IMG/VR virus record: IMGVR_UViG_3300047392_000113
Span: 1 to 55,151 of that record
DNA length: 55,151 nucleotides
Reading direction: 5' to 3' (one strand)
From: a virus
Shown here: piece after piece, positions 6,069-48,917 of the stretch
How positions within the stretch are numbered: the first letter of the stretch is position 1
Layout of the letters: each line of letters starts with the position of its first letter
The notes under the pieces: generated by a model
Seen by the model: only the letters and a program-made list of their open reading frames with translations
What the model was told of the DNA's origin: nothing
Database searches by the model: none
Program-made: the position numbers and the translations under genes

Positions 6069-6331
6069 TGCAATTAACTAGTAAAAAACTTTATCCATCT
6101 GTCCCACAACTGCAAGTGCCACTACCTGTGATTCCTGTTGACTTTGTTAAACCATTGTCATACGAATTTCGTGTAGCAGAAATTATTAACGATGAAGGTA
6201 AGATTGAAACTGTCAAGCTGCAAATGCAAATTTGGGAGCATGACGAATTTGGATCTGGTACAGTAAAACAATATTGGTCTGATGTGCCTCGACAAAAATT
6301 TGATAAAAATGGCGTGTTGTTAATGCCATGA
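6068..6331 (+). CDS. hypothetical protein
   Basis: An 87-residue protein starting inside the previous stop (TGATG). The N-terminus is Pro-rich (PSVPQLQVPLPVIPVDFVKP), followed by a beta-like segment IKLQMQIWEHD-type pattern and YWSDVPRQKF. No known domain. Coupled on both sides by 1-4 nt overlaps. Confidence 0.55.
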   Translation: MQLTSKKLYPSVPQLQVPLPVIPVDFVKPLSYEFRVAEIINDEGKIETVKLQMQIWEHDEFGSGTVKQYWSDVPRQKFDKNGVLLMP

Positions 6332-6501
6332 ATAAGTGGTCCATATCTAAGTGGTGGAGATTGTGGGCAAAAGCGATAGGTGAGAAAAGTAGTTCCCACG
6401 ATTGGGAAGCAGATAAGATTGCTTATATTCGTACTGCTATTGTTCTCTGTTATATTATCACAAATTTTTTTATTATCGCAGGTGTTATACATCACTGGTA
6501 A
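6328..6501 (+). CDS. small membrane protein, conserved in phages
   Basis: A 57-residue protein opening at an ATGA overlap. The N-terminal half is basic and aromatic (KWWRLWAKAIGEK), then DWEADKIAYIRT leads into one transmembrane helix (about residues 36-54) ending IAGVIHHW. The pattern is familiar from many phage genomes as an unnamed single-pass membrane protein. Function unknown. A strong promoter follows immediately. Confidence 0.6.
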   Translation: MNKWSISKWWRLWAKAIGEKSSSHDWEADKIAYIRTAIVLCYIITNFFIIAGVIHHW

Positions 6502-6508
6502 TTAGTCC

Positions 6509-6537
6509 TTGACTTTAATGCAATTTTCAGGTATAAT
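6509..6537 (+). promoter_or_regulatory. sigma70-like promoter giving a near-leaderless transcript
   Basis: TTGACT (6509-6514), 17 nt, TATAAT (6532-6537). The start codon of uvdE (6544) follows the -10 box by 6 nt and there is no Shine-Dalgarno sequence between them. Confidence 0.8.
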
Positions 6538-6543
6538 AAACCT

Positions 6544-7581
6544 ATGACTACATTACACACACCAAAAATCGGTTTTGCCTGCAAGTGGATTGATAACGCT
6601 ACTCAAGTTGATGGCATTGGTCCAAAAGATGACGCACGCAAATACAGCACTGGCACTACAACTATTGCGTGGCTCAATCGTCAAAGCGTAGACGTTGCTG
6701 AACAAAAACTCTGGGATTTGACCAAACAAAACCTTCAGAATGTATTGAACCTTGTACTCAAAGTTTCAACCTTGCCAGAAGGTTTACGCATGGTTCGCCT
6801 TTCCAGCGAAATTTTACCAGTCTACACCCATGCTGACTGGAGTTACTTTTACAAACGTCCAGATATCCTAAAACTTATGGAATACTGCTTTGCTAAAATT
6901 GGCGAAGTAGCACGCACGAACAATGTTCGTCTTTCTTTCCATCCTGGCCAGTTCACTGTGCTTGCTTCTGAAAATGCTGGTATTGTTAATAACTCTATTG
7001 ACGAATTCGAGTATCATGCAGACATGGCACGTATGATGGGTTACGGTAAAACATTTCAAGACTTTAAAATTAACGTTCACATTTCTGGTAAACTTGGTCC
7101 AGAAGGTATTCGTGCAGCTTACAAACGTCTTTCTCCAGAAGCACGCAATTGTATCACTATCGAAAACGAAGAAAATGCTTGGGGTCTTGATGATGCATTA
7201 TCTCTCAGCGATCTACTTCCTATTGTGTTAGATGTTCACCATCACTGGTGTCGTGAAGGTGAATACATTGCGCCTACCGACGATCGTGTTAAACGTGTTA
7301 TTGATTCTTGGCGTGGTGTACGTCCAACTATGCATTACAGCGTTAGTCGTGAGGATTATCTGGTCGGTCACAGCAAAGATGTTGAGCCTGACTATGCCTC
7401 TTTATTAGCTAGTGGTTATAAAAAAGCAAAGCTGCGTGCTCATAGTGACTTCTACTGGAACAATGAAGTAAATGCTTGGGTTCTTGGTTTCTTACCAACA
7501 CACGATATTATGTGCGAATCAAAAGCAAAAAATCTAGCTAGTTTTTCTTTGTATGAGGCATCAAAACAATTTTACGCATAA
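6544..7581 (+). CDS. uvdE: UV-damage endonuclease UvdE
   Basis: A 345-residue protein matching the UvdE/UVDE TIM-barrel family along its length: IGFACKW at the N-terminus, MVRLSSEILP, LSFHPGQFTVL, VNHIS-like INVHISGK, ITIENEENAWG, VLDVHHHW and HYS near residue 260. The His, Glu and Asp residues in these motifs are the metal ligands of the family. UvdE nicks DNA 5' to UV photoproducts and some abasic sites, starting excision repair. Length is normal for the family. In a phage it would repair the incoming genome in sunlit water; T4 itself uses the unrelated DenV. Start codon is dictated by the promoter at 6509-6537. Confidence 0.92.
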   Translation: MTTLHTPKIGFACKWIDNATQVDGIGPKDDARKYSTGTTTIAWLNRQSVDVAEQKLWDLTKQNLQNVLNLVLKVSTLPEGLRMVRLSSEILPVYTHADWSYFYKRPDILKLMEYCFAKIGEVARTNNVRLSFHPGQFTVLASENAGIVNNSIDEFEYHADMARMMGYGKTFQDFKINVHISGKLGPEGIRAAYKRLSPEARNCITIENEENAWGLDDALSLSDLLPIVLDVHHHWCREGEYIAPTDDRVKRVIDSWRGVRPTMHYSVSREDYLVGHSKDVEPDYASLLASGYKKAKLRAHSDFYWNNEVNAWVLGFLPTHDIMCESKAKNLASFSLYEASKQFYA

Positions 7582-35002: not shown

Positions 35003-38000
35003 ATGATTGATTTCAACACAGAACCGTATAATGACGACTACGACGAGAATAAAAAATTCTATCGTATTCTCTATCGTCCTTCGTTCGCTGTACAGGCTCG
35101 TGAACTTACTCAGATGCAGACTCTGCTACAAAAGCAGATTTCTCGTCATGGTAGCGCTGTATTCAAACAAGGCGCAATGGTTATCCCAGGACAGTGCTCT
35201 GTTGAGACAGTAACACAGCCAGGACAAGGTGCTGACTACGTTAAGCTACAAGTTAGCTATAATGGTGTAGCGGTTCAAACATTTATTTCTGCGCTGCAGG
35301 GTGCAACCATTATTAGTAGCAGTGGAGTAACTGCTACTATTATTAAAGCAGAGGACGCAGAGGGAACAGATCCTACTACTCTTTACGTTCGTTATACTAG
35401 TGGTGGCACTAATAACACAACTAAGACATTCTCTAATAACGAAGTTATCCATACTGCAGATGGAATCTATTATTTTCAAGCTGCTGCAACAGATGCGACT
35501 GGTAAGGGATCTCTAGCAACTATTCAGCGTGGTGTTTATTACATCAACGATCATTTCTGTTTGGTTGAAGATCAGGCTATCGTTCTAGACAAATACACCA
35601 ACACTCCTTCTTACCGTATTGGTTTATCTGTTAGTGAAGGTATTATTACTCCAGAACAAGACGAAACATTATTAGACAATGCACAAAATAGCTACAACTT
35701 TGCTGCTCCAGGTGCGCATCGTTACTATATTGAACTAACACTAACTAAACTTTCTCCAGATTCTACCAGCGACTTAAACTTCATCGAACTAATTCGTGTT
35801 GATGATGGTAGAATTAAGACTATCATCGACAAGACTGAATACTCTTTACTTGGAGATGAATTGGCTCGTCGTACATACGATGAATCTGGTGATTATACTG
35901 TTCGTGATTTCGCAATCGACATTCGTGAACACCGCAACAACAATCGTGGTCAATGGTTACAAAACACTGCGTATATTTCTGGTGATGTAGTGACTAACGG
36001 TGGTCAAATTTATGTTGCTAAAACTACAGGTTCTTCTGTAACAACTGCACCTGTTCATACTACAGGTACTGCATATGATGGTCCAGGTTCTACTGGTATT
36101 AAGTGGGAATGGACAGACTCTCCTGTATATAATCGTGGTATCTATCGCCCAGAAAATGGTGGAGATGAATCTAAACTTGCTATTGGTTTAGAGCCAGGAA
36201 AAGCATATGTGCGTGGTTATGAAATCCAGAAGGATTCTACTACATACATTGCTGTTGACAAGGCACGTGACTACGATCAACAAATAGCTGCAATTATTCA
36301 ACCTACTGCTGGTAACTATATCCTAGTTACCAACGTTAATAACTTGCCTCCAATCGATACATATGACACAGTTAAGTTATATGATCAAGTTACTAGCACT
36401 TCAGTTGGTACTGCGGTTGGTAACCAAGTTGGTACTGCTCGAATTCGTTTTATGGAATGGGCTAGTGGTGCGTCATATGGTTCTACTGCGGTTTATAAAT
36501 TAGGTTTGTTTGATATTCAAATGAATGCTGGTAAAGATTTTAACCGAACAGTTAAATCTTTCTATTACAACGTGAGTGGAGATTCAAACTTATCTTTCAC
36601 TGCAGACATTAACCCAGTTGCAACTGCATTAATCGGTTCTATTACTGCTGCTACTGGTACTGTTACTGGTACTGGTACATCATTCCAGACTGATCTAACT
36701 TCTGGAGATTATGTTCTTGTTGATGGAGTTATGTATCGTGTTACAGCTACACCGTCTTCACAGAACGCATTGACACTAAACACTGGTACATTTACTGGTA
36801 AAGCATACTCTCTAGCTACTACACAGCTAGTTGAGACACAAAATTCTGGTATGGTATTCTCATTACCAAATTATGCTATCCGTTCTAACAGATCAGCGGG
36901 AACATCTGGTGTCAACAATACAACTTATGTTTGCTACCAAAAGTTTACACAGAACGCTTCTGGTGTATCTTTATCTCTAAGCACTTCTGGCACATTTATG
37001 CCAGCTTCTGGTATCACAAACTATATTGTGGTAGATAACGACGTTGCAGTTGGTGGTGCTGTTATTCAGCCAGTTAGCATCGTACCGTTAGGTTCTTCTG
37101 TTACTATCACTCTACCATCAGCGCAATCTGGTCACTCAATGACAGTTATTGCAGCAGTTCAGCGTAATGGTTCTGGTTACGAGAAGAATAAGACCCTAAC
37201 TACTGTAACAGAACAGTTTAACACTGCTTCTCTTGCACAACAAACGTCATTGATTCTCGATAAGGCTGACGTATTCCGTATCACAAGTATTAAGATGGCG
37301 GGTGGTACTGCTTTCCAAGCAACTAATACTACTTTAGCTTCTAACCTATTCACGTTAGATATTTCTGATCGTTTCGATTTCGATAATGGTCAAAGAACTA
37401 CTCACTATGACTGGGGTCGTTTGAATCTAAAACCATCGTTCACAGTTCCAGCTGGTCCAGTTCAAGTAACATATGAATACTTTGAACACAGTGTTGGTGA
37501 CTATTTCGATGTAAACTCTTATAGCACTATTGACTATAACAAGATTCCAGCAGTACTGCGTGACTCTTTGGACTTCCGTCCTCGTGTTGCGAATAAATCT
37601 TCTGGTTCTACTAAAAATTTCATTGGAACAGGTTCTTCTTTAACTTGTGTACCAAAGCGTGGCGAAAACGTATCTTCTGACTACAGCTACTATTACGCTC
37701 GTAAAGATAAAATTGCCGTAGACTTCAACGGTAAGTTCTTCGACATTAAGGGCGTTCCTTCTATTGATCCAGGTGATCCACAAGACCCAGCATTAGGTAT
37801 GGTTCTTTACAGCCTAACACTAGAACCATACACTTACTCTACTAACTCAGTATCTGTTTCTAAAGTAGAAAATAAACGCTACACGATGCGTGATATTGGT
37901 AAACTAGAGAACAGAATTAACAACCTAGAATACTATACATCTCTTTCTCTTCTGGAACAAGAAACTCAGTCTCTGAAGATTACTGACACTAAAGGTCTAG

Positions 38001-41000
38001 ACAGAATGAAGAATGGTTTTATCGTTGATAACTTCAGCGGTAACAATATCGGTAACTCTAAGTCTGTAGATTATTTCTGTTCTGTTGATATGGAGAACAA
38101 CCAGCTTCGCCCATATTACACAATGCATAACGTTAACTTGATCGAGAAAAACTCGAACGATAGTCAACGTACATCTTCTAAGTATCAGTTAAATGGTGAT
38201 ATTATCACTTTACCTATCATTGATACTCCTGTTTTAATTAAACAAGATTACGCTTCTCGTTTAGAAAACATTAACCCATTTGCGATTTATACGTTCTTAG
38301 GTAACGTTTCTATCAACCCGCCTTCTGATGACTGGTTTGAAACTAATCGTTTACCAGATATCGTTCAGCAGTCAGAGGGTAACTACAGTATGATTCGTGA
38401 CTTGGCTATTCGCTCTGGTATTATCGGAGAGGGTGGTTATGGAACAGTTTGGAATCCATGGGAAACAGAATGGATCGGTAAACCAGTAACAGTCGGTAAC
38501 AACAGATATGAATCAGATCGTCGTTATGGCGATGGTGGTGCTGCTCTTGATAATGCTTTCGGTCTTGGACCAGAAGCTCCAGGTTGGGCACACCGTGTAG
38601 TTACAACTGAAGTGCAGGCAACTGCAATCGGACAGTCTCGTACTGGTGTTCGTTCTACTTTACAAACTAAGACTGATTACGAACAAGTTTCAGATCGTAC
38701 AGTTTCAACTGCAGTTATCCCTTACATCCGTTCTAGAAACGTTCTAGTTCAGATCAAAGGTCTAAAACCACAGACTCGTTTCTATGGTTATTTTGATGAT
38801 ATTGATGTTAACTCTTACATCACTCCAGCAACTAAGATTGTATACACTGCAGGAACTGGATCATTTAATACAGATACTAACGTTGGTGGTTCAGCATCTG
38901 AAACTAAGCGTCGTATCTCTGGCGATTCTCAAGTTTGTTTGAATCGTGGTGACGTTATCACTACTTCTAACAACTCTGGTTCTGCCGTTGTTGTAGGTAA
39001 ATCTGTTGATCCAGATACTGGTGCTACAACTCTAGATGTTGTTAACGTTATCGGAACTATCACTAGTGGTCAAACATTCACAGGTTCTATCTCTGGTGCA
39101 ACTGGTACAGCGATTTCTGTTACTACTGCTACTACTTTAGTTACAAATAAGCAGGGTTCGGTTAACTTCTTATTCTTTATTCCAAATACAGACTCTGTAC
39201 GCTTCCGTACTGGTTCTCGTGAATTAAAGTTGATCGATGCTTCTACTTCTACTGGGCAGTGGACTTCTCGTGGTCGTGGTATCTATCGTGCTGAAGGTAT
39301 TTTAGAAACTAAACAAGCTAATATCAACGCTGTTCGTAATGCGGAGATCGTTAAAGAAGTTATTGGTCCAAACGATGATCCAGCAGCTCGCCAAACAATC
39401 TACAGCACTTCTGAACGTGTTGTTTCTGATACAGGTTGGTATGACCCACTTGCTCAATCTTTCTTGGTTCAGCAAAAAGGTGGTGCGTTCTTAACTGGCG
39501 TTGATATTTTCTTTGCTACTAAAGACGATCGCATTCCTGTTACACTAGAAATCCGTGAAATGACGAACGGTACTCCAGGTAAGAATGTTCTTCCATTCAG
39601 CCGTGTTACTCTAGATCCATCTCAAGTTAGTTTGTCTACTAATATGGTAACTATTGGTGGAGATTCTACACAATATCCTAAGTTTGACACACCAACTCGT
39701 TTCAACTTCAAGACTCCAGTTTATGTTCAGGATAATGCTGAATACTGTTTCGTCTTGCAGTCTGACTCTAATAACTACAAGGTGTGGATCTCTCAAGTCG
39801 GCGATGATATTCCAGGAACTTCTGGAAGAACAATCTCTCAGCAACCATATGCTGGTGTAATGTTCAAGTCTCAGAACGCATCTACTTGGACACCAGATCA
39901 AAACCAAGATATTAAGTTTACTATCTACCGTGCGCAGTTCGACACTAGCGTTGTTGGTAATATTGAATTTGTTAATGACGTTCTACCATACGACAATATC
40001 GAACAAGATCCTGTTCAAACAGTTTCTGGTTCTAACACTGTTCGTATATGGCATTATGCCCACGGTATGTATGCAAGTTCTCGTGTAAACATCAAGGGAA
40101 TTTCTTCTGCGATTAATGGTATCCCAGCTGCAGAATTGAATGGTGAACATGTTATCGTTGCTATGGATGCAAACAGCTACACATTCACAACTACTACTAA
40201 TGCTACTTCTAGCGGTTATGGTGGTGGGTCTACTGTTTACGCAACTAGAAATATCACATACGATCTAGTTAACCCATCTATCCAGATGCAAACATTCTCT
40301 GATACTAAAGCTAGCTTTTCTATCAAGACTACTTCTGGTAAAGCTATCGATGGTTCACAGACACCATATGTTGCAGACACATCATTCACACCATGTTTGA
40401 TTAAACAGAACAACATGGTTCAGTCTCCAAGAGTTATCGCTTCTGAGATTAACGAAAACAACTCTATGGGTGGTTCTAAATCTGTAACATTCTCTGCTCA
40501 GATTTCTACTACTAATGATTCGGTGTCACCAGTTATCGATACTGCTCGTGCTAGCTTGGTTGCTGTTTCTAATAAATTGAACTGGCCAACTGAAAGCAAT
40601 ACAAATATTGCTGTGTTAGATCAGAAACAATTATTCACTGGCGCTTCTGGTGCATTTACGTTCACTTCTACTGGTTTCACTTCTACAAACTCTACAGTTC
40701 GTGGTTCTATGGCTGGTATCGGTATCGGACGTTATGTTACTATCGCTTCTGCTACAACAGCAGGTAACACTGGAACATTCCTAGTTACTGGTTATACAGA
40801 TGATGGTACTACTGGAACTATCATTCTTTCTGGATTCAGCGGAACAAGTGAATCTGCTGTTACTGCAACTACAGTCTCTGTTCGTGAACAATTCTTCGAC
40901 GAGATCACCCCAGAAGGTAGTTCTACTATCAGCAAGTACGTAACTGCTCCAGTTAAGTTTGCAAACCCATCTACATACCTACGTGTGAGATTTGCTGCAA

Positions 41001-41266
41001 ACATTCCTTCTGAGTCTGATATTCAAGTCTATTACAAGACTTCTTCTGGTGATACCAAGCAGTTGCAAACCACTAAATATACACTGTTGAACCCAGATTC
41101 TACTTTACCTAAAGTAGAGCTAGGTAATACAGCGTTCTCTGATGTCAACTATACTCTAACAGGTATGGCTGCGTTCGATGGCATTGTTGTTAAGATCGTA
41201 ATGCGTTCTACAAACAGCAGCGCTGTACCACTAATTAAAGACTTACGAATTATCGCTTGCCCGTAA
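35003..41266 (+). CDS. giant DUF4815-type baseplate/fibre-base protein
   Basis: A 2087-residue protein. The N-terminus MIDFNTEPYNDDYDENKKFYRILYRPSFAVQ-ARELTQMQTLLQKQI (in parts) is the DUF4815 signature of T4-like aquatic phages. Later segments are long Ser/Thr/Asn/Gly-rich beta regions; an AQSFLVQQKGGAFLTGVDIFFATKDD segment (about residues 1480-1505) is another conserved block of these proteins. By order it replaces gp9-gp10 type outer-wedge proteins that hold long fibres. It is the largest gene in the window. No stop-codon interruption or composition change. Confidence 0.75.
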   Translation: MIDFNTEPYNDDYDENKKFYRILYRPSFAVQARELTQMQTLLQKQISRHGSAVFKQGAMVIPGQCSVETVTQPGQGADYVKLQVSYNGVAVQTFISALQGATIISSSGVTATIIKAEDAEGTDPTTLYVRYTSGGTNNTTKTFSNNEVIHTADGIYYFQAAATDATGKGSLATIQRGVYYINDHFCLVEDQAIVLDKYTNTPSYRIGLSVSEGIITPEQDETLLDNAQNSYNFAAPGAHRYYIELTLTKLSPDSTSDLNFIELIRVDDGRIKTIIDKTEYSLLGDELARRTYDESGDYTVRDFAIDIREHRNNNRGQWLQNTAYISGDVVTNGGQIYVAKTTGSSVTTAPVHTTGTAYDGPGSTGIKWEWTDSPVYNRGIYRPENGGDESKLAIGLEPGKAYVRGYEIQKDSTTYIAVDKARDYDQQIAAIIQPTAGNYILVTNVNNLPPIDTYDTVKLYDQVTSTSVGTAVGNQVGTARIRFMEWASGASYGSTAVYKLGLFDIQMNAGKDFNRTVKSFYYNVSGDSNLSFTADINPVATALIGSITAATGTVTGTGTSFQTDLTSGDYVLVDGVMYRVTATPSSQNALTLNTGTFTGKAYSLATTQLVETQNSGMVFSLPNYAIRSNRSAGTSGVNNTTYVCYQKFTQNASGVSLSLSTSGTFMPASGITNYIVVDNDVAVGGAVIQPVSIVPLGSSVTITLPSAQSGHSMTVIAAVQRNGSGYEKNKTLTTVTEQFNTASLAQQTSLILDKADVFRITSIKMAGGTAFQATNTTLASNLFTLDISDRFDFDNGQRTTHYDWGRLNLKPSFTVPAGPVQVTYEYFEHSVGDYFDVNSYSTIDYNKIPAVLRDSLDFRPRVANKSSGSTKNFIGTGSSLTCVPKRGENVSSDYSYYYARKDKIAVDFNGKFFDIKGVPSIDPGDPQDPALGMVLYSLTLEPYTYSTNSVSVSKVENKRYTMRDIGKLENRINNLEYYTSLSLLEQETQSLKITDTKGLDRMKNGFIVDNFSGNNIGNSKSVDYFCSVDMENNQLRPYYTMHNVNLIEKNSNDSQRTSSKYQLNGDIITLPIIDTPVLIKQDYASRLENINPFAIYTFLGNVSINPPSDDWFETNRLPDIVQQSEGNYSMIRDLAIRSGIIGEGGYGTVWNPWETEWIGKPVTVGNNRYESDRRYGDGGAALDNAFGLGPEAPGWAHRVVTTEVQATAIGQSRTGVRSTLQTKTDYEQVSDRTVSTAVIPYIRSRNVLVQIKGLKPQTRFYGYFDDIDVNSYITPATKIVYTAGTGSFNTDTNVGGSASETKRRISGDSQVCLNRGDVITTSNNSGSAVVVGKSVDPDTGATTLDVVNVIGTITSGQTFTGSISGATGTAISVTTATTLVTNKQGSVNFLFFIPNTDSVRFRTGSRELKLIDASTSTGQWTSRGRGIYRAEGILETKQANINAVRNAEIVKEVIGPNDDPAARQTIYSTSERVVSDTGWYDPLAQSFLVQQKGGAFLTGVDIFFATKDDRIPVTLEIREMTNGTPGKNVLPFSRVTLDPSQVSLSTNMVTIGGDSTQYPKFDTPTRFNFKTPVYVQDNAEYCFVLQSDSNNYKVWISQVGDDIPGTSGRTISQQPYAGVMFKSQNASTWTPDQNQDIKFTIYRAQFDTSVVGNIEFVNDVLPYDNIEQDPVQTVSGSNTVRIWHYAHGMYASSRVNIKGISSAINGIPAAELNGEHVIVAMDANSYTFTTTTNATSSGYGGGSTVYATRNITYDLVNPSIQMQTFSDTKASFSIKTTSGKAIDGSQTPYVADTSFTPCLIKQNNMVQSPRVIASEINENNSMGGSKSVTFSAQISTTNDSVSPVIDTARASLVAVSNKLNWPTESNTNIAVLDQKQLFTGASGAFTFTSTGFTSTNSTVRGSMAGIGIGRYVTIASATTAGNTGTFLVTGYTDDGTTGTIILSGFSGTSESAVTATTVSVREQFFDEITPEGSSTISKYVTAPVKFANPSTYLRVRFAANIPSESDIQVYYKTSSGDTKQLQTTKYTLLNPDSTLPKVELGNTAFSDVNYTLTGMAAFDGIVVKIVMRSTNSSAVPLIKDLRIIACP

Positions 41267-41490
41267 TGGAATATCTGAAGGTTCAAGGACATAGTGGCTT
41301 AGTTAGAGATATCTCTAGCGGAGCCATTATTAATACGAATAAAGCAGAATACCATGAATATATGGAGAGAGTAAGAGCGTCCGAAGAAAAGGAAGCCCTA
41401 CTTTCTCAACATACGGTTGAGATAAATAATATAAAGAATGAGTTGCAAGACATTAAAGTCTTACTACTACAACTCGTCAATAAAGGTTGA
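41266..41490 (+). CDS. small conserved T4-like protein with coiled coil
   Basis: A 74-residue protein whose ATG overlaps the previous stop (TAATG). MEYLKVQGHSGLVRDISSGAIINTNKAEYHEYMERV is a pattern widespread after the giant DUF4815-type gene in T4-like aquatic phages; the rest is a heptad coiled coil (EINNIKNELQDIKVLLLQL). It may trimerise and act as a virion adaptor or chaperone between baseplate and fibres. Function not established. Confidence 0.7.
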   Translation: MEYLKVQGHSGLVRDISSGAIINTNKAEYHEYMERVRASEEKEALLSQHTVEINNIKNELQDIKVLLLQLVNKG

Positions 41491-41503
41491 CAAAGGATCC
41501 TAA

Positions 41504-42700
41504 ATGGCAAACATTTCAGCACCTTCAATCACGTTAAGAGCTACCAAAGGTAGTCCTTTAACGAATACAGAAGTTGATGCTAACTTTACTAATATTAGTA
41601 ATGCATTACAAACAGGCTTAACCGCAGCTTCTTACACTGCAGCCGACGTTTTAGCTAAACTTATTACTGTCGATGGTTCTGGCTCTGGTCTGGACGCTGA
41701 CCTATTAGACGGTTATACTCAAGATACAGCTAATACCGTTAGTACTATCGTTCGACGTGACGCATCTGGTAACTTTGCAGCGAATAACATCACTGCAGCT
41801 ACGTTTACTGGTACATTTTCTGGTACAGCTGCTATCACTAGCGGTTCTATTACACTAACAACTTCCCTAGCTATTGGTTCTGGCGGTACTGGCGCAACAA
41901 CTGCGGCAGGTGCTCGTTCTACTCTAGGTTTAGTTATTGGCACTGATGTACAGGCTTATGATAAAGAACTAGCTGCTCTAGCCAGCGTAACATCTGCTGC
42001 GGATAAAGTTCCATATTTTACTGGTGACGGAACAGCTGCAGTAGCAGCATATACTGCATACGGAAGAACATTAACTGGTCTTGCTGATGCAGCTGCAGGT
42101 CGTACAGCTCTTGCGTTAGTTATCGGTACGGATGTACAAGGTTATAGCGCTAACTTAACTGCCCTTTCTGGTCTAACTGCTACAACCGACAAAGGTTTGT
42201 ATACTAGAACTGGTGCTGGTACTGCCGTAGTTCGTTCTATTGCTGGTACAACTAGTCGTATCGTAGTGACTAACGGTGATGCGGTCGCAGGAAACCCAAC
42301 TATCGATTTGGGTGCTGACGTCCCTTCACTGTCTGCTAATAATACATTCGCTGGAACTTGTACATTTAACGGTGCAACTACTACCCTAAAAGCGGTTGTA
42401 GCTGATACATTTACACAGGCTTCTGATGCTCGTTTGAAACAAAACATTCAGACAATAAATAATGCGGTAGGCGTTGTTAATGGTCTTAGAGGGGTTTCTT
42501 ACACAAGAGATGGTAAAGAAGAAATTGGTCTTATCGCTCAAGAAGTCGAACTCATTTTACCTCAAGTCGTTTCTACCACAGAAAGCGGTATGAAAGGTAT
42601 CTCATATTCTAACATGGTCGGTTTGTTAGTTGAGGCTATTAAAGAACAACAAAAGACTATTGACGAGCTAAACGCTCGACTAATTAAACTGGAGAATTAA
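41504..42700 (+). CDS. tail fibre with S74 intramolecular chaperone domain
   Basis: A 398-residue fibre. N-terminal SAPSITLRATKGSPLTNTEVDANFTNI is a common fibre adaptor start, the middle is Ala/Gly/Thr-rich repeats (LVIGTDVQAYDKELAALASV twice-like at residues 145 and 206), and the C-terminal ~95 residues (SDARLKQNIQTI, GLIAQEVELILPQVV, YSNMVGLLVEAIKEQQ) are the peptidase S74 domain. That domain trimerises the fibre, then cuts itself off at the Ser of SDARLK. Next gene (Cys-rich) starts 2 nt after its stop. Confidence 0.85.
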   Translation: MANISAPSITLRATKGSPLTNTEVDANFTNISNALQTGLTAASYTAADVLAKLITVDGSGSGLDADLLDGYTQDTANTVSTIVRRDASGNFAANNITAATFTGTFSGTAAITSGSITLTTSLAIGSGGTGATTAAGARSTLGLVIGTDVQAYDKELAALASVTSAADKVPYFTGDGTAAVAAYTAYGRTLTGLADAAAGRTALALVIGTDVQGYSANLTALSGLTATTDKGLYTRTGAGTAVVRSIAGTTSRIVVTNGDAVAGNPTIDLGADVPSLSANNTFAGTCTFNGATTTLKAVVADTFTQASDARLKQNIQTINNAVGVVNGLRGVSYTRDGKEEIGLIAQEVELILPQVVSTTESGMKGISYSNMVGLLVEAIKEQQKTIDELNARLIKLEN

Positions 42701-42702
42701 AC

Positions 42703-43077
42703 ATGGCTATTCACGGAGCAACAGGACACAGACGTGCTGATGGAACAGACGTTGTAGACTTATTTTGGAATTACTACGACGCTGGTAACAGAGGTTATAC
42801 TGAACCTAACGCTAACTGCGCTTGGAACTGTGCATGTAACGGTGCTAACTGTAACTGCGGTAACTGCGACGCTGCTGACTTGGGTTGGGGTGCTACTACT
42901 GATCGTCGTATCAACATCTTCCGTAACACTTCTATCGGTGCTGCTGTTTCTGGTTCTACTGACGGTATCCGTCACGATAACCAAGATAACACAATGGGTG
43001 GTTTCCAGTGGTATAGAACAAACTGCAACTGTAACTGCGCTTGCAACTGCAACTGTAACTGCGCTTGCAACTGCTAA
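42703..43077 (+). CDS. Asn-Cys repeat protein, candidate modified virion peptide
   Basis: A 124-residue protein with GGAG upstream. Residues 1-37 (MAIHGATGHRRADGTDVVDL start) lead to a first cluster of six Cys (residues 38-56, NCAWNCACNG..). A Cys-free middle (residues 57-105) follows, then nine Cys in the final 18 residues, all as Asn-Cys or Ala-Cys pairs. Total 15 Cys, no His-rich site. Such density of Cys in a cytoplasmic protein is highly unusual for a phage. It is followed by an unknown gene and then a radical SAM/SPASM enzyme. I infer a RiPP-like substrate or cross-linked fibre component; metal binding is the alternative. Confidence 0.8.
   Translation: MAIHGATGHRRADGTDVVDLFWNYYDAGNRGYTEPNANCAWNCACNGANCNCGNCDAADLGWGATTDRRINIFRNTSIGAAVSGSTDGIRHDNQDNTMGGFQWYRTNCNCNCACNCNCNCACNC
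43021..43074 (+). repeat. tandem 24-bp repeat encoding NCNCNCAC
   Basis: Two identical 24-nt units (43021-43044, 43045-43068) plus a 6-nt partial copy before the TAA. Codons alternate AAC with TGC/TGT and GCT with TGC. Perfect identity at synonymous positions implies recent duplication or ongoing repeat-number change. Confidence 0.92.
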
Positions 43078-43090
43078 TTGAGGAAACATA

Positions 43091-44260
43091 ATGTTAAAAC
43101 TATTTAAAAGCGTAATTAGACCAAACGAAGGTGCAGAGATGTACCACCGTGATTCTAAACATAGAGTCACTATGGGTTATGATGCCGAAGCTAAAGTTAT
43201 TAAAGTTAAGGTTGAAGAAGTTAGATCTCCAAATCCAGACCTAAGTGAAGATTTGCCAGAGAATACTCCAACTATTCTTAGAGATGTTCATACTACTGCA
43301 GATTATATTTTGGTAGCTGAGCGTGGCTTCACAGAAGCAGACTTCGAATCAAAAACAGATAATAATAAATGGATTGTTGAGTATAATTCTAAGACTAAAA
43401 CAATCAGCGATCCTATTGATGTTTATGATATTGCTATACAATATATCAATGGTAGCGATTCTCATACAAAGATTTATTACAATCTAAACGAGTATCGTTA
43501 TCAGAATGATCCAACTCTAACTCCGTGTTTCGTTTTAGATAAATTTTATAAATCTCTAGGTTTCGATGGATCTACTGTACAATTCTTTGTCGAAGACTTA
43601 CAGGTTGATTTGTTAGACAGTATTCTAGAAATCCCAGCGGAACAAGTGACTGAAGTTAGTTCTAAGGAATATGAATTCTGGGTTCAGTATAATATGAGAC
43701 TGGCGATGAGTTTTGAGATTTTAGATGTTACTGGAAAGGTAGTATCATCTCCACTACAGTCAGTTTCTGATGAAGCAAAAAGCTCTACAACATATCCAAT
43801 GACATCTTTGTTTCCTAGAGATGACACTGGTATTGCAGCAGGTTTGATTGGTCCTAAGAATCTTGGTGTTGGTGCTTCTGGAACTAGATTTAAAGTTGTT
43901 TTACCTTCTTCTGAGACATACTATGTTCGAGTTAATACTAGTTCTAGAATTTGGAGATTTGTTGGAACTAATCCTCAAGCAACGTTTGATATAGAAACCA
44001 TCAACGGAGTATGTAACAAGTCTCGTATTACGTTACCTAACTATACTCCAGGGCAAACCGCTACTCCTACATTAGCCACTCAACAATTTATTGATGAACA
44101 TCCACCTGCAGAAGTTCTTACTGGACCAAATTCTAATTTAGCTGGTTCTGAAGATGTGACATTGAAATTGTATGGTCTAAAATCTGGCGATTATATTAAG
44201 ATGAAAGTTAACTGTGGTAAGTTCATTTCTTATGCAGAACTTTGGATCGAAATTCAGTAA
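43091..44260 (+). CDS. unknown protein, tail-module cassette
   Basis: A 389-residue protein with GAGGAAA upstream, 13 nt after the Cys-rich gene. Start MLKLFKSVIRPNEGAEMYHRDSK; the rest is mainly beta-like with acidic linkers and contains AIQYINGSDSHTKIYY, a central YNMRLAMSFEILDVTGKVV stretch and a final GDYIKMKVNCGKFISYAELWIEI. I do not recognise a family. Composition fits a virion or adhesin-like protein rather than an enzyme. Being between the Cys-rich protein and the radical SAM enzyme, it may be a partner or scaffold of the former. Confidence 0.65.
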   Translation: MLKLFKSVIRPNEGAEMYHRDSKHRVTMGYDAEAKVIKVKVEEVRSPNPDLSEDLPENTPTILRDVHTTADYILVAERGFTEADFESKTDNNKWIVEYNSKTKTISDPIDVYDIAIQYINGSDSHTKIYYNLNEYRYQNDPTLTPCFVLDKFYKSLGFDGSTVQFFVEDLQVDLLDSILEIPAEQVTEVSSKEYEFWVQYNMRLAMSFEILDVTGKVVSSPLQSVSDEAKSSTTYPMTSLFPRDDTGIAAGLIGPKNLGVGASGTRFKVVLPSSETYYVRVNTSSRIWRFVGTNPQATFDIETINGVCNKSRITLPNYTPGQTATPTLATQQFIDEHPPAEVLTGPNSNLAGSEDVTLKLYGLKSGDYIKMKVNCGKFISYAELWIEIQ

Positions 44261-44268
44261 CCTAAATA
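44261..44268 (+). promoter_or_regulatory. T4-late-like promoter CCTAAATA
   Basis: CCTAAATA immediately after the stop of the 389-residue gene and 32 nt before ATG 44301. It would give the radical SAM operon its own late start, with an AAGGAT ribosome binding site in the leader. Confidence 0.6.
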
Positions 44269-44300
44269 CTTTGATCTTCTCTATATTATAAGGATTTTTA

Positions 44301-45764
44301 ATGAGTAAATTTACGCTAGTCCTGCAAGGGGCTAATGATGTGAAAGTTAATATGGTTTATGACCCAATGACATCTGAGATGTATTGGGAACATAATCACG
44401 AAAGACCCTCGCTGGAACACGTCAGCAAGGGTCTTCAATACCAAATGAATGCAAAGGTGTGGGAGCCTGCAAATATTACAAACCCACACGACCCAGCACT
44501 CCACGGTAAGAAATCCCGCAAGCCAACTACACTTAAGATCACGATGGGTCTTAAGTGTAACTACGCATGTTCTTACTGTAACCAAGCCCACCAACCACAC
44601 GATCCAGTCGGCGGTCCAGATGACGCTGACGAATTAGTGCGCAAGATGCAAGAGAACTTCCAGTTCGGAATCTATGATAAATTTCGTCTTGAATTCTGGG
44701 GTGGGGAGCCAATGGTGTATTGGAAAACGTTGAAACCTCTTGCTGAAAAGGTCAAGAAGGTTTACCCAAATGCTCAGTTTATGATGGTTACCAACGGATC
44801 TCTATTAACAAGAGATAAGATTGATTGGTTCAATCGTATGGGGTTTTCTATCGGTATGTCTCACGACGGACCACTCCACGCACAGAATCGTGGACCAGAT
44901 CCATTAGATGAAGCACCAGCTAAAGATGCTGTTGTTTATGCTCTTAAGACTATGGGTGGTATGAGATTTACTTTTAACTGTGTATTGACTCGTGAGAACG
45001 TATCAATTCCATCAGTTAGAGAGTTTATTCTTAAGAAATTGAATAAATCTTTTACTGGGTATGAAAATCCAGGTGTAGATCAAAGAGAGATTCAAGTAAC
45101 TACAGAAGAGTTGATGCTTCCATATGATGATTCTGGTATGGCGCATTCTTTACAAACTACTGATGAGAAGAAAGAAATTCTTCACACATTGTTTGAAGAA
45201 ACTATCGACAATAAGAATCAGTTCAGCTGGACAGTATACCAAAAAGTTAAATCTTTCTACGAATCTATCGTATATGGTCGTCCAGCAGAAGCACTTGGCC
45301 AAAAGTGTGGTATGGATAAAGAAGACAACATTGCCATCGATATGAAAGGTAACGTTACCACTTGTCAGAATACTTCTTCCCTAACTAAACACAACATCGG
45401 TAATATCGAAGACTTCGATAATATCCGTCTAACTAATTCTTATCACTGGTCTACTCGTAAGGAATGTCCTTCTTGCCCAGTGGTTCAGTTGTGTCAGGGT
45501 GCTTGTTTGTTCCTAGAAGATAAACACTGGGAGCAGGCATGTGAAAACTTATTCTGGTATAATATGGCTATGCTCAGCGCTGCTCTGTTCAAAATGACCG
45601 ATGGACTGGTCTTGACTGAAATCCGTGGAGATCGTATTCGCTTCGATGGAGTTACAAGCATCCAAGTGATCGATAACGAATATATGAAAACTGGTGTAAA
45701 GTCTTGGAAAGTTCGTAAGCCTTTGAACATTCCAGTGGTGCAAGTTCCTGTGGAACCTAAATAA
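44301..45764 (+). CDS. radical SAM enzyme with SPASM domain
   Basis: A 487-residue protein. Cys86, Cys90 and Cys93 (KCNYACSYCNQ) form the CX3CX2C site for the S-adenosylmethionine-binding 4Fe-4S cluster; GGEP (134-137) is the SAM amino-group motif. The C-terminal SPASM domain has all seven expected cysteines: C336, C355 (in G-X4-C), C389-X2-C392-X5-C398-X3-C402 and C414, binding two more clusters. SPASM enzymes modify peptides or proteins (thioethers in ranthipeptides, formylglycine in sulfatases, PQQ precursor). Residues 1-75 are a beta-rich extension that could be a substrate-recognition domain. Neighbouring Cys-rich protein is the obvious candidate substrate. Confidence 0.92.
   Translation: MSKFTLVLQGANDVKVNMVYDPMTSEMYWEHNHERPSLEHVSKGLQYQMNAKVWEPANITNPHDPALHGKKSRKPTTLKITMGLKCNYACSYCNQAHQPHDPVGGPDDADELVRKMQENFQFGIYDKFRLEFWGGEPMVYWKTLKPLAEKVKKVYPNAQFMMVTNGSLLTRDKIDWFNRMGFSIGMSHDGPLHAQNRGPDPLDEAPAKDAVVYALKTMGGMRFTFNCVLTRENVSIPSVREFILKKLNKSFTGYENPGVDQREIQVTTEELMLPYDDSGMAHSLQTTDEKKEILHTLFEETIDNKNQFSWTVYQKVKSFYESIVYGRPAEALGQKCGMDKEDNIAIDMKGNVTTCQNTSSLTKHNIGNIEDFDNIRLTNSYHWSTRKECPSCPVVQLCQGACLFLEDKHWEQACENLFWYNMAMLSAALFKMTDGLVLTEIRGDRIRFDGVTSIQVIDNEYMKTGVKSWKVRKPLNIPVVQVPVEPK
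44402..44435 (+). repeat. inverted repeat within the radical SAM gene (first)
   Basis: AAGACCCT (44402-44409) and AGGGTCTT (44428-44435) pair over 8 bp; after one mismatch GCTG/CAGC adds 4 bp around an 8-nt loop. The hairpin lies about 100 nt into the coding region. No U-run follows, so it is not a normal terminator. Confidence 0.7.
44529..44558 (+). repeat. inverted repeat within the radical SAM gene (second)
   Basis: ACACTTAAGA (44529-44538) and TCTTAAGTGT (44549-44558) form a perfect 10-bp stem with a 10-nt loop, covering the codons just before the CX3CX2C motif. Confidence 0.8.
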
Positions 45765-45765
45765 A

Positions 45766-46098
45766 ATGAATGAAGCGTTTCTGGATTGTTATATCTGGGA
45801 TGTTAATAGATACCCGAGGTATGGGTCTATTACGGCGAAGCTGAATAAGAGAACTTTATCTGATGTTTTTCATCACAATTCTCTATCAGATTCCTTCCAA
45901 AATAATAACGTAAGTATACAAATTCCAGACTTTTTGTTGAATGCAACGCAGGAACAAAAAGAATTTGTTTATAAATATAAAGAGAGAATCATAAGATTAA
46001 AGCTCCCTATTATGGTCGTAGAAAAGACTGTTAATGGCGAAGAACGCTGGGGTTTAGATCTTAGATGTGCAGAACATCTTAAGTATTTAAGAAATTAA
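45766..46098 (+). CDS. unknown 110-residue protein of the radical SAM operon
   Basis: ATG 45766 lies 1 nt after the radical SAM stop, so the two are surely cotranscribed and coupled. The protein is mixed alpha/beta: MNEAFLDCYIWDVNRYPRYGSI at the start, then ATQEQKEFVYKYKERIIRLKLPIMVVEKTVNG and a final LDLRCAEHLKYLRN. Size matches small RiPP recognition or partner proteins, but the sequence does not show a recognisable RRE fold by eye. Function unknown. Confidence 0.65.
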   Translation: MNEAFLDCYIWDVNRYPRYGSITAKLNKRTLSDVFHHNSLSDSFQNNNVSIQIPDFLLNATQEQKEFVYKYKERIIRLKLPIMVVEKTVNGEERWGLDLRCAEHLKYLRN

Positions 46099-46110
46099 GG
46101 AGAAATAAAA

Positions 46111-47058
46111 ATGCAAAAAAAGCATGTTAAATGGGTTATCGCTCACGAGCCAATCGGTCTATTCTTGAAGGTAGCTGAATCCTTCTCTAAAGAAGTGAAC
46201 GAGCAAACTGGTGGTATGTTCGACATCGAAGTTCTATCTTTGTCTGACTACTCTGCAAAGTACAATGATGGTAAGAAAATCACTAAGAATGAACTAATGG
46301 AATTGGTTGATTCTGGTGCTATCGAAATGAGCCACATCTATACTACTTGGTTGGCTGATTACAACAAAGACCTACATGCGTTAGATCTACCATTCTTGTT
46401 CGAGAATCATGATCACGCTGACCGTGTTTTAGAAGGCGAAATCGGCACTGAGTTGCTAGCTGGCGTTTCTAAGAATAGCAATATCAAAGCTATGTCTTTC
46501 ACATACTCTGGTGGCTACCGTGTAGTTCCAGCAAACTTCCGTGCTGACACTGTTGCATCTTGGGAAGGTCAAACAGTTCGTACTTCTCGCAGCCCAGTTG
46601 CTGTTGAGACTTTCAAACTTCTTGGCGCAGTTCCAAACAAGGACATCGCTCTTGAAGAAATGAATGAAGCAGCTGACGCTGGTGTTATCGCTGCTGGTGA
46701 ATCTACATACGTTCGTATTTTCCCACTAAATCAGAACGAATCTTTCAAAGTTGTTAACGATACTGCTCACAGCTTGTTCTTGACATCTATCATTGTTAAC
46801 CAAGACTTCATGAAGCAGTTTGACGAACAAACTCAAGAAATCATGGCTACTGCTGCATTTAACGCTGCTCGTAAAGAGCGTCGTGAATCTGTTGCTAACA
46901 TCCCAGAAATCTTGGCTGAGTGTGAAGCAAAGGGTGTTGAAGTTGTTAAGATGTCTGCTGAAGAACAAAGCAAATTCAAAGCTGTTACTTCTAAAGTATA
47001 TGAGAAGTTCGCTGATTACTTCACTCCAGGTTTGGTTCAGAAGATTCAGTTACACTAA
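46111..47058 (+). CDS. TRAP-transporter solute-binding protein homologue (DctP family) without signal peptide
   Basis: A 315-residue protein with AAGGAGA upstream. It follows the DctP/TRAP P-subunit fold throughout: LKVAESFSKEVNEQTGGMFDIEVL, YNDGKKITKNELMELVDSGAIEMSHIYTTW (in parts), DLPFLFENHDHADRVLEGEIG, WEGQTVRTSRSPVAVETFKLLGAVPNKDIALEEM and the C-terminal helix YFTPGLVQKIQ. The Arg in TVRTSRSP is where the family binds the carboxylate ligand. Unlike cellular members it starts MQKKHVKWVIAHEP with no export signal and no DctQ/DctM genes follow. It therefore stays in the cytoplasm or is built into virions. Origin by transfer from a host gene is likely. Confidence 0.85.
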   Translation: MQKKHVKWVIAHEPIGLFLKVAESFSKEVNEQTGGMFDIEVLSLSDYSAKYNDGKKITKNELMELVDSGAIEMSHIYTTWLADYNKDLHALDLPFLFENHDHADRVLEGEIGTELLAGVSKNSNIKAMSFTYSGGYRVVPANFRADTVASWEGQTVRTSRSPVAVETFKLLGAVPNKDIALEEMNEAADAGVIAAGESTYVRIFPLNQNESFKVVNDTAHSLFLTSIIVNQDFMKQFDEQTQEIMATAAFNAARKERRESVANIPEILAECEAKGVEVVKMSAEEQSKFKAVTSKVYEKFADYFTPGLVQKIQLH

Positions 47059-47070
47059 TTAAAATTTAGT

Positions 47071-47078
47071 GCTAAATA
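47071..47078 (+). promoter_or_regulatory. T4-late-like promoter GCTAAATA
   Basis: GCTAAATA lies 13 nt after the DctP-like stop and abuts the terminator hairpin at 47079. A transcript would start near 47084, inside that hairpin, 34 nt before ATG 47118. Confidence 0.45.
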
Positions 47079-47102
47079 AAAGGGAGCTCAGGCTCCCTTT
47101 TC
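47079..47102 (+). terminator. Rho-independent terminator
   Basis: AGGGAGC (47081-47087), loop TCAG, GCTCCCT (47092-47098), followed by TTTTC; A-rich left flank extends the stem. It closes the radical SAM operon before the PP-loop gene. Confidence 0.82.
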
Positions 47103-47117
47103 ATTTTTGAGGATATT

Positions 47118-48221
47118 ATGAAACAACTGCTCTATTACAATATTGGTTTAATTAGATCACTAGACTTGATCAATAGTAAGCAAGAACCTATCGATGAGTA
47201 TCTTGCACCAAATCACAAAGAACTGTATGCGTTCTTTGAGAAACATAAAATGAACCTGAACGCTGTTTATGATAGAACAGGACAGACTCCCCATTTCTTA
47301 AACATCAAACCTGGTCTTTTACAGATTCCTAGTATTGATCCATCTTTCAATAAGTCTTTCAGACAGTGCGTCGAAGAAAGATGTAAAGAATTGGTTGCAC
47401 TAGATAAACCAATTACAGTTGTTTGGAGTGGTGGTATCGATAGTACGTTGGCGCTATTCGCCTTACTTCGCCATGTTAATGATCCAAGCCAGATTACTGT
47501 TTATGGCACATATAGTTCTATCTTAGAATCTGGTCCAATGTTCGATAAGAATATTAAAAACTCTGGCGTCAACTATAAGTTCAAAGTTTCTTCCACACGA
47601 GATTTTGACGATGGAGACCCAAACAGTATCTTCGTTACTGGATTTTATGGTAATCAGTTGTTTGGACCAGTAGACGATTTCATCACTGGTAAAATTAAGA
47701 CTCCAATTTCATTTTTCCACCACCAGTTTAATAACGATGATCCATTAATCGACTACACTAAGTGTATCGATGATGAACTTCACGAATTCTTACTACCTTC
47801 TATCAAGGCTAGCCCTAAGAAAATTGAGACTCTACGAGATCTCCGTTGGTGGTTAATTTTTAACTACGACTGGTATACTGCAGAATACTCTAGCCGTATC
47901 GCAACTAAACAGCAAGATAACCAGTATCACTTTTATAACACAGACGACTTCCAGCGTTATGTTATGACGACTAAAGAGCCGTTCACCAAAGACGTCGGTA
48001 AACCTCTAACTCATCGTTGGGTCATGAGAGAGTTGATTGAAGAGTATAGTGGAGACAGTTATTATGCTTGGAATAAACCAAAAGGGGTTTCCTCTCTTGG
48101 AAACCCCCTTGCTTCTTGGTTGTTTTTGCTAGATGACTATTCAGTCTACTATGCAAATAGAAACACTTTAAGTGATCATCAAGAAGTTTACTCTCACGTT
48201 GATGAGCACATGGGTTTCTGA
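47118..48221 (+). CDS. asparagine-synthetase-like PP-loop ATPase
   Basis: A 367-residue protein. VVWSGGIDSTLAL (residues 102-114) is the PP-loop of N-type ATP pyrophosphatases, and FVTGFYGNQLFGP (about residue 175) corresponds to the 'TG-GGDELF-G' motif of AsnB-type enzymes with the acidic pair replaced by Asn-Gln. The N-terminal ~95 residues are unlike a glutaminase: there is no Cys2 nucleophile. It would adenylate a carboxylate for amide or related bond formation. AsnB-like enzymes without glutaminase are known in lasso-peptide cyclisation and other peptide tailoring. A GAGG site precedes ATG 47118. Its last 54 bp overlap the convergent oxygenase gene. Confidence 0.78.
   Translation: MKQLLYYNIGLIRSLDLINSKQEPIDEYLAPNHKELYAFFEKHKMNLNAVYDRTGQTPHFLNIKPGLLQIPSIDPSFNKSFRQCVEERCKELVALDKPITVVWSGGIDSTLALFALLRHVNDPSQITVYGTYSSILESGPMFDKNIKNSGVNYKFKVSSTRDFDDGDPNSIFVTGFYGNQLFGPVDDFITGKIKTPISFFHHQFNNDDPLIDYTKCIDDELHEFLLPSIKASPKKIETLRDLRWWLIFNYDWYTAEYSSRIATKQQDNQYHFYNTDDFQRYVMTTKEPFTKDVGKPLTHRWVMRELIEEYSGDSYYAWNKPKGVSSLGNPLASWLFLLDDYSVYYANRNTLSDHQEVYSHVDEHMGF
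48082..48110 (-). terminator. terminator for the - strand oxygenase gene, embedded in coding sequence
   Basis: GGGGTTTCC/GGAAACCCC (9 bp, loop of 6) lies within the PP-loop gene. On the - strand it is followed by TTTTGGTTT, 58 nt past the oxygenase stop at 48168; on the + strand no U-run follows. So it most likely serves the leftward transcript. Confidence 0.65.
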
Positions 48222-48827
48222 TTCTAGGTTAGTTTCAACATAACGCTGAGCATAACCTGGAGTTACATAGATTTCTCCAATGCGACTCTTAATACCAAAA
48301 CTTGTGCTAACTAGGTTTTGCGCAGCCATTTTACGAATAGCTTGAACACCACCACGTGGGTCTGGGAAATATGTCGTAGGAGAATTTTCACCACAGTTAG
48401 CGATGAAAGTAAACACTAGAGTAGAAAACTCATAGTTGTGTGGTGGGATGTGTTCGCCACCTTGTTGGAATAGAGTATTAGAACCAACAATAACTGGTGT
48501 TCTACCAGCGTCATCTTTTGAAAGCTGGATAGATTCACAGATCTCGTAAATCACTTCTTTTAAGCGATTAACTGCTGGGTGATCTAATTCCATAATATCT
48601 TTACCAGAATCTTCTTCGGCAACGTTCCATCCGTTGGAAAGATTGATAAGAGGTTGTGCTACCTGTTCCCAGTCAGTGAATTTGTAACTCGCAAAAAGAG
48701 TTGGAAATAGGTGTTGTTGGAAGGTTTCTTCAACTGGCGAATAGTCGAAATTGTATTCTTCTGTTTTAGTTTCGCCGATTAAAGGGGCAGGGATGTTCCC
48801 GTTTTGTGGTGGATTGGTATTTTCCAT
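48168..48827 (-). CDS. 2OG-Fe(II) oxygenase-like protein
   Basis: A 219-residue protein; ATG 48827 has GGAGA upstream and a late promoter behind it. The C-terminal half follows the layout of the 2OG-Fe(II)_Oxy_5 family common in aquatic phages: GGEHIPPHNYEFSTLVFTF (H126, H130), TYFPDPRGG, GEIYVTPGYAQRYV and a terminal NVRVNF with a candidate 2OG-binding Arg (R212). The usual distal iron-ligand His (in 'FPS-L-H-V') reads Gln194, so the iron site is altered; it could be a divergent or inactive oxygenase. Related phage enzymes are thought to hydroxylate proteins. It is the only leftward gene between 20.7 and 55 kb. Confidence 0.65.
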   Translation of the reverse strand: MENTNPPQNGNIPAPLIGETKTEEYNFDYSPVEETFQQHLFPTLFASYKFTDWEQVAQPLINLSNGWNVAEEDSGKDIMELDHPAVNRLKEVIYEICESIQLSKDDAGRTPVIVGSNTLFQQGGEHIPPHNYEFSTLVFTFIANCGENSPTTYFPDPRGGVQAIRKMAAQNLVSTSFGIKSRIGEIYVTPGYAQRYVETNLESETHVLINVRVNFLMIT

Positions 48828-48873
48828 ATTATCTCCATGAAATTGATTTATATATCGCTTCGCAGCTAAGAAG

Positions 48874-48881
48874 TATTTATA
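48874..48881 (-). promoter_or_regulatory. T4 late promoter TATAAATA (leftward)
   Basis: The - strand reads an exact TATAAATA, about 47 nt before ATG 48827. It excludes the longer upstream start at 48887, which lies ahead of the promoter. Confidence 0.8.
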
Positions 48882-48917
48882 CGCCATCTATTTCAGGAAA
48901 TCGCAAATCCCTTCGTT

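Follow-up and report, generated by a model that had tools for sequence, protein, structure and literature searches.

A radical SAM/SPASM enzyme linked to asparagine-cysteine tails of phage fibre proteins suggests chemical modification of the tail-fibre tip

Why should a phage carry, amid its tail-fibre genes, a protein with alternating asparagine and cysteine residues together with an enzyme of the kind that cross-links peptides? This question was raised by a stretch of viral DNA of 55,151 nucleotides (hereafter the window; positions 1 to 55,151 of IMG/VR record IMGVR_UViG_3300047392_000113, a 170,832-bp virus with one such enzyme). The original prediction placed a RiPP-like protein-modification cassette here, in which a radical SAM/SPASM enzyme and further tailoring-type enzymes act on a Cys-rich protein that is then built into the virion or released, with late-type promoters fitting expression alongside structural genes. 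To assess this, we first re-examined the open reading frames of the window with Pfam, PHROG and NCBIfam profile searches and with AF2 structure models, which gave the following features.

41504 to 42700, plus strand: tail-fibre protein of 398 aa ending in a Peptidase_S74 intramolecular chaperone domain (PF13884, 7.3e-13; tail-fibre PHROGs).
42703 to 43077, plus strand: Asn-Cys protein of 124 aa with 15 Cys, the proposed substrate.
42817 to 42867, plus strand: first Cys cluster of that protein, residues 39-55 (CAWNCACNGANCNCGNC).
43021 to 43074, plus strand: its C-terminal Asn-Cys tail, residues 107-124 (NCNCNCACNCNCNCACNC), the proposed site of modification.
43091 to 44260, plus strand: partner protein of 389 aa, modelled (pLDDT 81.5) as an N-terminal alpha/beta part and a C-terminal Ig-like beta-sandwich.
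44301 to 45764, plus strand: radical SAM/SPASM enzyme of 487 aa (PF04055, 1.1e-9; TIGR04085 SPASM, 2.8e-9; phrog_1802, 1.1e-62), with C86, C90 and C93 for the SAM cluster and C336, C355, C389, C392, C398, C402 and C414 for two auxiliary clusters.
45766 to 46098, plus strand: 110-aa protein of an optional cassette, without a Pfam, PHROG or NCBIfam match.
46111 to 47058, plus strand: DctP-type solute-binding protein of the optional cassette (PF03480, 5.8e-43), starting directly at the mature domain without a signal peptide.
47078 to 47101, plus strand: terminator-like hairpin, found by pattern scan, between the DctP and PP-loop genes.
47118 to 48221, plus strand: AsnB-like PP-loop ATPase of the optional cassette, with an SGGIDS motif, no glutaminase domain and only weak Asn-synthase scores (PF00733, 0.12; TIGR01536, 0.002).
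48168 to 48887, minus strand: 2OG-Fe(II) oxygenase-like protein, convergent with the cassette (phrog_81, 5.3e-12).

All seven genes of the predicted cassette were found where they had been placed, and the observation is thereby confirmed. The Asn-Cys tract is not a chance or DNA-repeat artefact, since across 12 orthologues the Cys residues are conserved while their codons (AAC/AAT, TGC/TGT) drift and Asn swaps with Ala. By contrast, the late-type promoters were not confirmed: CTAAATA and TAAATAC occur 12 and 11 times in the window against about 12 expected, which is not above chance. The same-strand genes from 41257 to 47058 are separated by at most 40 bases, which suggests one transcription unit.

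To test whether the Cys-rich protein and the enzyme belong together, we searched with each alone and looked for the other beside it; loss of linkage in related phages had been named at the outset as an outcome that would overturn the idea. Since the Cys-rich protein alone gave no match among annotated phages, a DNA pattern for Cys-Asn-Cys-Asn-Cys-Asn-Cys was used to search viral contigs; loci from this and the other searches are referred to below by L numbers. Of 59 stretches with the motif at a protein's C-terminus, 44 carried this enzyme, against 1 of 61 in which the motif was not so placed (Fisher 1.2e-18, although loci are not independent). Most of the misses are cut off by the end of the stretch, and two others (L128 and L131) are spurious small ORFs. 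Conversely, when viral contigs were searched with the enzyme alone, all but one (L335) of 52 loci with at least 3.5 kb upstream had a Cys-rich Asn-Cys protein beside it. Of these, 36 were called by a strict rule that gave 0 of 675 background viral genes; as this rule missed short tails with 3-4 Cys and internal tracts, the rest were read by eye, a subjective step. Because the PHROG profile phrog_1802 also gave matches in all 14 control genomes, our own profile was used for the enzyme. Some contigs are shared between the forward and reverse searches, so that lineages rather than loci are the fair count: of 29 enzyme lineages (60% identity), all 27 with informative flanks have an Asn-Cys protein. 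In line with this, T4-like relatives in which no enzyme was found (BUCT-ZZ01, Melnitz) lack the Asn-Cys protein in their tail regions.

The same DNA pattern in bacterial and archaeal genomes returned 118 stretches, mostly out-of-frame repeats, none with the enzyme within the stretch. One of them (L229, in Acidaminococcus fermentans) nevertheless proved real when the whole genome was searched, and prophage copies were found in Negativicutes genomes. We also considered whether the linkage might reflect hitch-hiking of two independent accessory genes, since tail loci are hypervariable and radical SAM cassettes are reported to have been gained in such a region of pelagimyophages (PMC7029224). However, the linkage holds over the 27 informative lineages, in T4-like myoviruses, a siphovirus, prophages and others, while the other neighbours change, and this explanation is very unlikely and already close to refuted.

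Next, we asked where the tail resides. It sits on otherwise unrelated fibre proteins. In the sister phages L312, L313, L328 and L332, orthologues of the window's own fibre gene (54-65% identity over 267-279 aa) end in the Asn-Cys tail instead of the chaperone domain, so the product is a virion tail protein; this supports the idea that the tail is built into the virion. No support was found for a released peptide: no protease or exporter was seen next to the module, although a Hint domain starts right after the tail in four proteins (in Achromobacter phages JWF and 2-1 and in L056 and L161) and would expose it as a new end, observations that leave the matter of leader removal and release undecided. 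In JWF this fibre-Hint protein is the product of gene PJWF_00028. Across the tails, 431 Cys-Cys spacings are exactly 2, the residue between the two Cys is Asn in 318 cases and Ala in 54, and 63 of 92 tails end in Cys. Such a pattern at a fibre C-terminus would also suit a metal-binding needle, in which alternation in a trimeric fibre puts all Cys inward and Asn outward so that the Cys coordinate iron, zinc or an iron-sulphur cluster, as the HxH motifs of the T4 gp37 tip hold iron, while the enzyme modifies something else or only prepares the site. We regard this as unlikely, since it does not explain why a SPASM peptide-modifying enzyme is almost always next to the tail, nor why the tail also occurs internally (L345, L327) or before Hint domains.

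The remaining genes were then compared across loci. The 389-aa protein, unassigned in the original prediction, is part of the core in most lineages: an iterated profile joins it to the short partners beside other copies of the enzyme, in a divergent family in which no conserved stretch was found. Foldseek searches with its model returned only Ig/PapD-like folds in the PDB and seven uncharacterised phage proteins in BFVD. The 110-aa, DctP and AsnB genes form an optional cassette, absent in L292 and L328, which keep the core. Homologues of the 110-aa protein at 28.7-51.5% identity occur in L334, L010 and L016, in L334 next to AsnB. The DctP protein has no evident modifying role, but is 68-82% identical in phages whose radical SAM enzyme is only 36-37% identical. 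The motif SGG[ILV]DS is present in 20 of 20 homologues of the PP-loop protein. The 2OG gene is on the other strand here, although 2OG genes lie in line with the enzyme in many other copies, and extra radical SAM genes and a halogenase also occur in other copies.

To investigate what the enzyme might do, its cluster ligands and predicted fold were examined. Both radical SAM and SPASM assignments exceed their cut-offs (PF04055, 39.1 bits over 29.5; TIGR04085, 37.3 bits over 27); the CxxxCxxC motif is invariant in 62 of 62 sequences and the seven SPASM Cys are conserved in 61-62 of 62. The AF2 model (pLDDT 86.4) is nearest to CteB, a thioether-forming peptide maturase (5why, 2.8e-16). An anti-phage viperin was ruled out, since NF038283 scored 55.4 bits against a cut-off of 180, the pVip hit covers only the core, and a SPASM domain is present. 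The sulfatase-maturase reading was likewise not supported: the layout of the first two SPASM Cys matches CteB rather than anSME, which has one more Cys, and the residue after the second is Gln where anSME has its catalytic Asp (Asp277), making sulfatase-type Cys oxidation unlikely. It also remains possible, though unlikely, that the enzyme makes a change other than a thioether, such as epimerisation of alternate residues (an alternating D/L beta-helix, as in polytheonamide), carbon-carbon links or Cys oxidation. A strictly alternating sequence suits alternate-residue epimerisation, and there is weaker fold similarity to the epimerase EpeE and to ChlB, TigE and SuiB; however, epimerases such as EpeE matched worse than CteB.

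Taken together, these data partly support the interpretation originally put forward: its core, the pairing of enzyme and Cys-rich protein, is strongly supported in both directions and passes the linkage test named at the outset, whereas the promoters, the released peptide and a modifying role of DctP are not supported. The explanation we favour (probability about 0.7) is a tail-fibre tip maturation module. In this view, before or during virion assembly the enzyme binds the C-terminal Asn-Cys run of a fibre or fibre-associated protein, probably helped by the partner protein, and makes carbon-sulphur cross-links from the Cys thiols, giving a rigid, permanently cross-linked cap at the free end of the fibre that meets the host; 2OG oxygenase, second radical SAM, halogenase or AsnB-like genes would add further changes in some phages. 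The gene linkage, the shared C-terminal motif on unrelated fibre proteins, the fusions of fibre and tail, and the enzyme's fold class and cluster ligands come from the computation itself, whereas it is by inference that the tail is the substrate (likely), that the link is a thioether with a loss of 2 Da (a reasonable prediction, about as likely as not) and that the product acts at the receptor-binding tip (somewhat more likely than not). No chemistry or virion proteomics was seen, and an enzyme-installed modification on the peptide was not tested; linkage shows joint function rather than which protein is modified, L335 has the enzyme without an Asn-Cys protein, and neighbouring CXC residues leave little room for the ring sizes of known thioether peptides.

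We found no description of such a system in literature on radical SAM enzymes with phage tails, RiPPs, the NCNCNC motif or phage JWF, within openly licensed papers and excluding preprints. Phage tail fibres are thought to gain specificity through sequence and, at times, glycans or metals. A modifying enzyme dedicated to the fibre end, found in 29 enzyme lineages, would mean that the part of a phage that touches the host is chemically altered in ways that genome sequence does not show. It would change how receptor-binding proteins are predicted and expressed, as recombinant fibres made without the enzyme would be incomplete, and it offers a new radical SAM family that acts at the C-terminus of large proteins. 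The system is carried by cultured phages and a bacterial isolate and is thus open to direct testing. A more far-reaching and tentative possibility is that phages of several families run a dedicated radical-chemistry pathway that rebuilds the receptor-facing fibre tip after translation, with exchangeable add-on enzymes (oxygenase, halogenase, further radical SAM enzymes, AsnB-like ligase) that diversify it chemically rather than by sequence, as a new layer of phage-host recognition or tip armour.

Among known systems, the closest are the ranthipeptide/SCIFF thioether maturases PapB and CteB. The enzyme shares with these a radical SAM domain plus a SPASM domain with the seven-Cys layout of CteB, and a Cys-rich protein gene next door; as in a RiPP system, a ribosomal precursor with a conserved motif is encoded beside the modifying enzyme in diverse genomes. 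However, the proposed substrate is the C-terminal end of a virion fibre protein of up to 646 aa rather than a short precursor, the motif is alternating Asn-Cys, and the enzyme falls below every curated cut-off for maturases such as PapB, DynA and CcpM (best PapB, 73.9 bits against 340). No exporter was found, nor a PqqD-like recognition domain, an element that is common but not universal in RiPP systems: there is no Pfam match, the modelled N-terminus is three strands and a short helix without the helix trio, and the partner has no such fold match. The anaerobic sulfatase-maturating enzyme likewise modifies a residue in a full-size protein, gives a significant sequence and fold match, and is the annotation of the copy in JWF, but it has an eighth auxiliary Cys and Asp where this family has Gln, and neither a sulfatase gene nor a CxPxR motif in the Cys-rich protein was found. 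QhpD of quinohaemoprotein amine dehydrogenase, whose profile TIGR03906 matches the enzyme studied here at 3.9e-15, is a radical SAM enzyme that makes thioethers inside a subunit of a larger protein, there an enzymatic redox protein rather than a virus particle, and with an unrelated substrate. Finally, the T4 gp37 fibre tip, with its HxH iron sites, also carries alternating metal-ligand-type residues at a fibre end, but with His rather than Cys and no modifying enzyme.

The virus record to which the window belongs is 170,832 bp long, and its long structural protein is most like those of T4-like phages such as Synechococcus phage BUCT-ZZ01 and the Methylophilales and Pelagibacter phages, at 38-46% identity over the part searched. 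The genes at the locus lie in the following order, with all those from the tail-fibre gene to the PP-loop gene on the same strand:

35003-41266, long structural protein
41504-42700, tail-fibre gene with an S74 chaperone end
next gene, 124-aa protein with 15 Cys
next gene, 389-aa protein
next gene, radical SAM/SPASM enzyme
next gene, 110-aa protein
46111-47058, DctP homologue without signal peptide
next gene, PP-loop protein
other strand, converging, 2OG-oxygenase-like gene

These data confirm the gene arrangement described in the original prediction. The exception is its late-promoter motifs, which are no commoner than chance.

Co-occurrence of the Cys-rich protein and the radical SAM enzyme in other phages had been put forward in advance as a point on which the prediction would stand or fall. 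To assess this in the forward direction, viral contigs were scanned for DNA encoding CNCNCNC, with no reference to the enzyme. Of 120 stretches (loci are numbered with the prefix L), 59 have the motif within 60 residues of the C-terminus of an ORF of at least 60 aa, and 44 of these carry the enzyme, versus 1 of the 61 others. Most of the 15 without it end too soon after the tail, while L128 and L131 are chance ORFs, and L066 ends before the distance at which its close relatives have the enzyme. In bacterial and archaeal genomes the same pattern gave no enzyme inside 118 stretches, but the one phage-like case, L229 of Acidaminococcus fermentans, has the enzyme 1.7 kb further on.

To complement this analysis, viral contigs were searched with a profile of 23 diverse enzymes, which gave 77 further loci. 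Of 52 with at least 3.5 kb upstream, 36 have an Asn-Cys protein by a strict rule that fires on 0 of 675 background viral genes. Of the other 16, all but one (L335) have an Asn-Cys protein by inspection, in the form of short C-terminal tails such as HNCNCNC or, in one case, a 14-Cys homologue of proteins with internal tracts. Such tracts inside a protein, followed by a C-terminal domain starting SKIIC[AT]KL, were seen in L345, L327, L329, L350 and L046. At 60% identity the enzymes form 29 lineages, and all 27 with informative flanks have an Asn-Cys protein. Two T4-like relatives that did not appear in the enzyme searches lack such a protein in their tail regions.

The tail is the only thing that these proteins share. 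It ends small proteins (60-130 aa) and fibres of up to 646 aa, some of them collagen-like. Cys-Cys spacing is 2 in 431 cases, the residue between being Asn in 318, Ala in 54 and Asp in 30, and 63 of 92 tails end exactly in Cys. In L312, L313, L328 and L332 the orthologue of the window's fibre gene itself ends in the tail, whereas in the window the fibre ends in S74 and the tail is on the next gene; this is the best evidence that the product is a fibre part. In Achromobacter phages JWF and 2-1, and in L056 and L161, a Hint domain starts right behind the tail, which we infer could expose it by self-cleavage. The JWF and 2-1 tails (L024 7679-9127, L354 2853-4295) differ by one Cys-Asn unit, just before the Hint domain. 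Several phages have two to four tailed proteins for one enzyme.

Among 62 full-length members of the enzyme family, the three SAM-cluster Cys are invariant and the seven SPASM Cys are kept in 61-62. The AF2 model (pLDDT 86.4) is nearest to CteB, then to anSME, ChlB, TigE, SuiB and SkfB, nearly all of which are peptide or protein modifiers. The first two SPASM Cys are laid out as in CteB; anSME has an extra Cys there, and Asp where this family has Gln. In CteB, the free site on auxiliary cluster I is held to bind the substrate Cys, and by analogy thioether formation is the best guess. No curated family cut-off is reached, so the enzyme represents a new family within a known class.

The 389-aa protein is one long form of a very divergent family that lies with the enzyme in most lineages. 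Its model has an N-terminal alpha/beta part and a C-terminal Ig-like sandwich, without full-length relatives in the PDB but with seven uncharacterised phage proteins; a chaperone or tip component is plausible. The ~105-aa, DctP and AsnB-like genes follow the enzyme in the same order in phages whose enzymes are only 36-37% identical, are absent in L292 and L328, and occur in part in L334 (110-aa and AsnB) and L019 (AsnB). The DctP gene, whose role is unexplained, is the best conserved of this cassette, at 68-82% identity in the phages in which the enzyme beside it is 36-37% identical. 2OG oxygenases are the commonest other enzymes, with at least 10 of 75 neighbouring proteins matching one 2OG model. 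A tryptophan-halogenase-like gene also occurs in L141 (5871-7073; PF04820 1.3e-31), about 2.5 kb after the start of the radical SAM gene, as do second radical SAM genes in L025 and L070. In L038 (3051-11662) a 79-aa protein with an Asn-Cys tail is followed by four radical SAM genes; a T4-like ocean contig with 12 radical SAM genes has been reported (PMC5332604).

Named carriers of the enzyme are Achromobacter phages JWF, which is temperate and inducible (PMC3899368), and 2-1. Close enzyme homologues lie in 9 of 61 genomes around A. fermentans, and most of the ten stretches fetched have Cys-rich Asn-Cys or Gln-Cys proteins and the partner (the 389-aa protein's family) beside them. Some copies look decayed. 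In the prophage copies L368, G001:C2 and G009:C7 the matched enzyme stretch contains stop codons, a natural test of whether the tail decays when the enzyme is lost. In L365, L366, L370 and L373, from prophage regions of Negativicutes genomes, there are extra Cys-rich proteins with long CQxCQxC runs, several ending in NCNCS-DDS, which lie with two radical SAM genes and a partner. In L372 a 161-aa protein with CDCSSDCDC repeats lies next to a radical SAM gene (5022-5507 and 6158-7231), with no obvious phage genes around, possibly representing the same idea outside phages.

Taken together, these analyses support in part the interpretation in the original prediction, in that the linkage of enzyme and Cys-rich protein and the fusion of the tail to fibre proteins were found in the sequences. 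No modification has been observed; which protein is modified, the bond type, the timing and the effect on infection are inferences. We regard the locus as a real, widespread and apparently undescribed module for modifying the end of phage tail fibres. In kind it belongs with radical SAM/SPASM peptide maturation, from which it differs in its setting, the virion, where we know of no such system.
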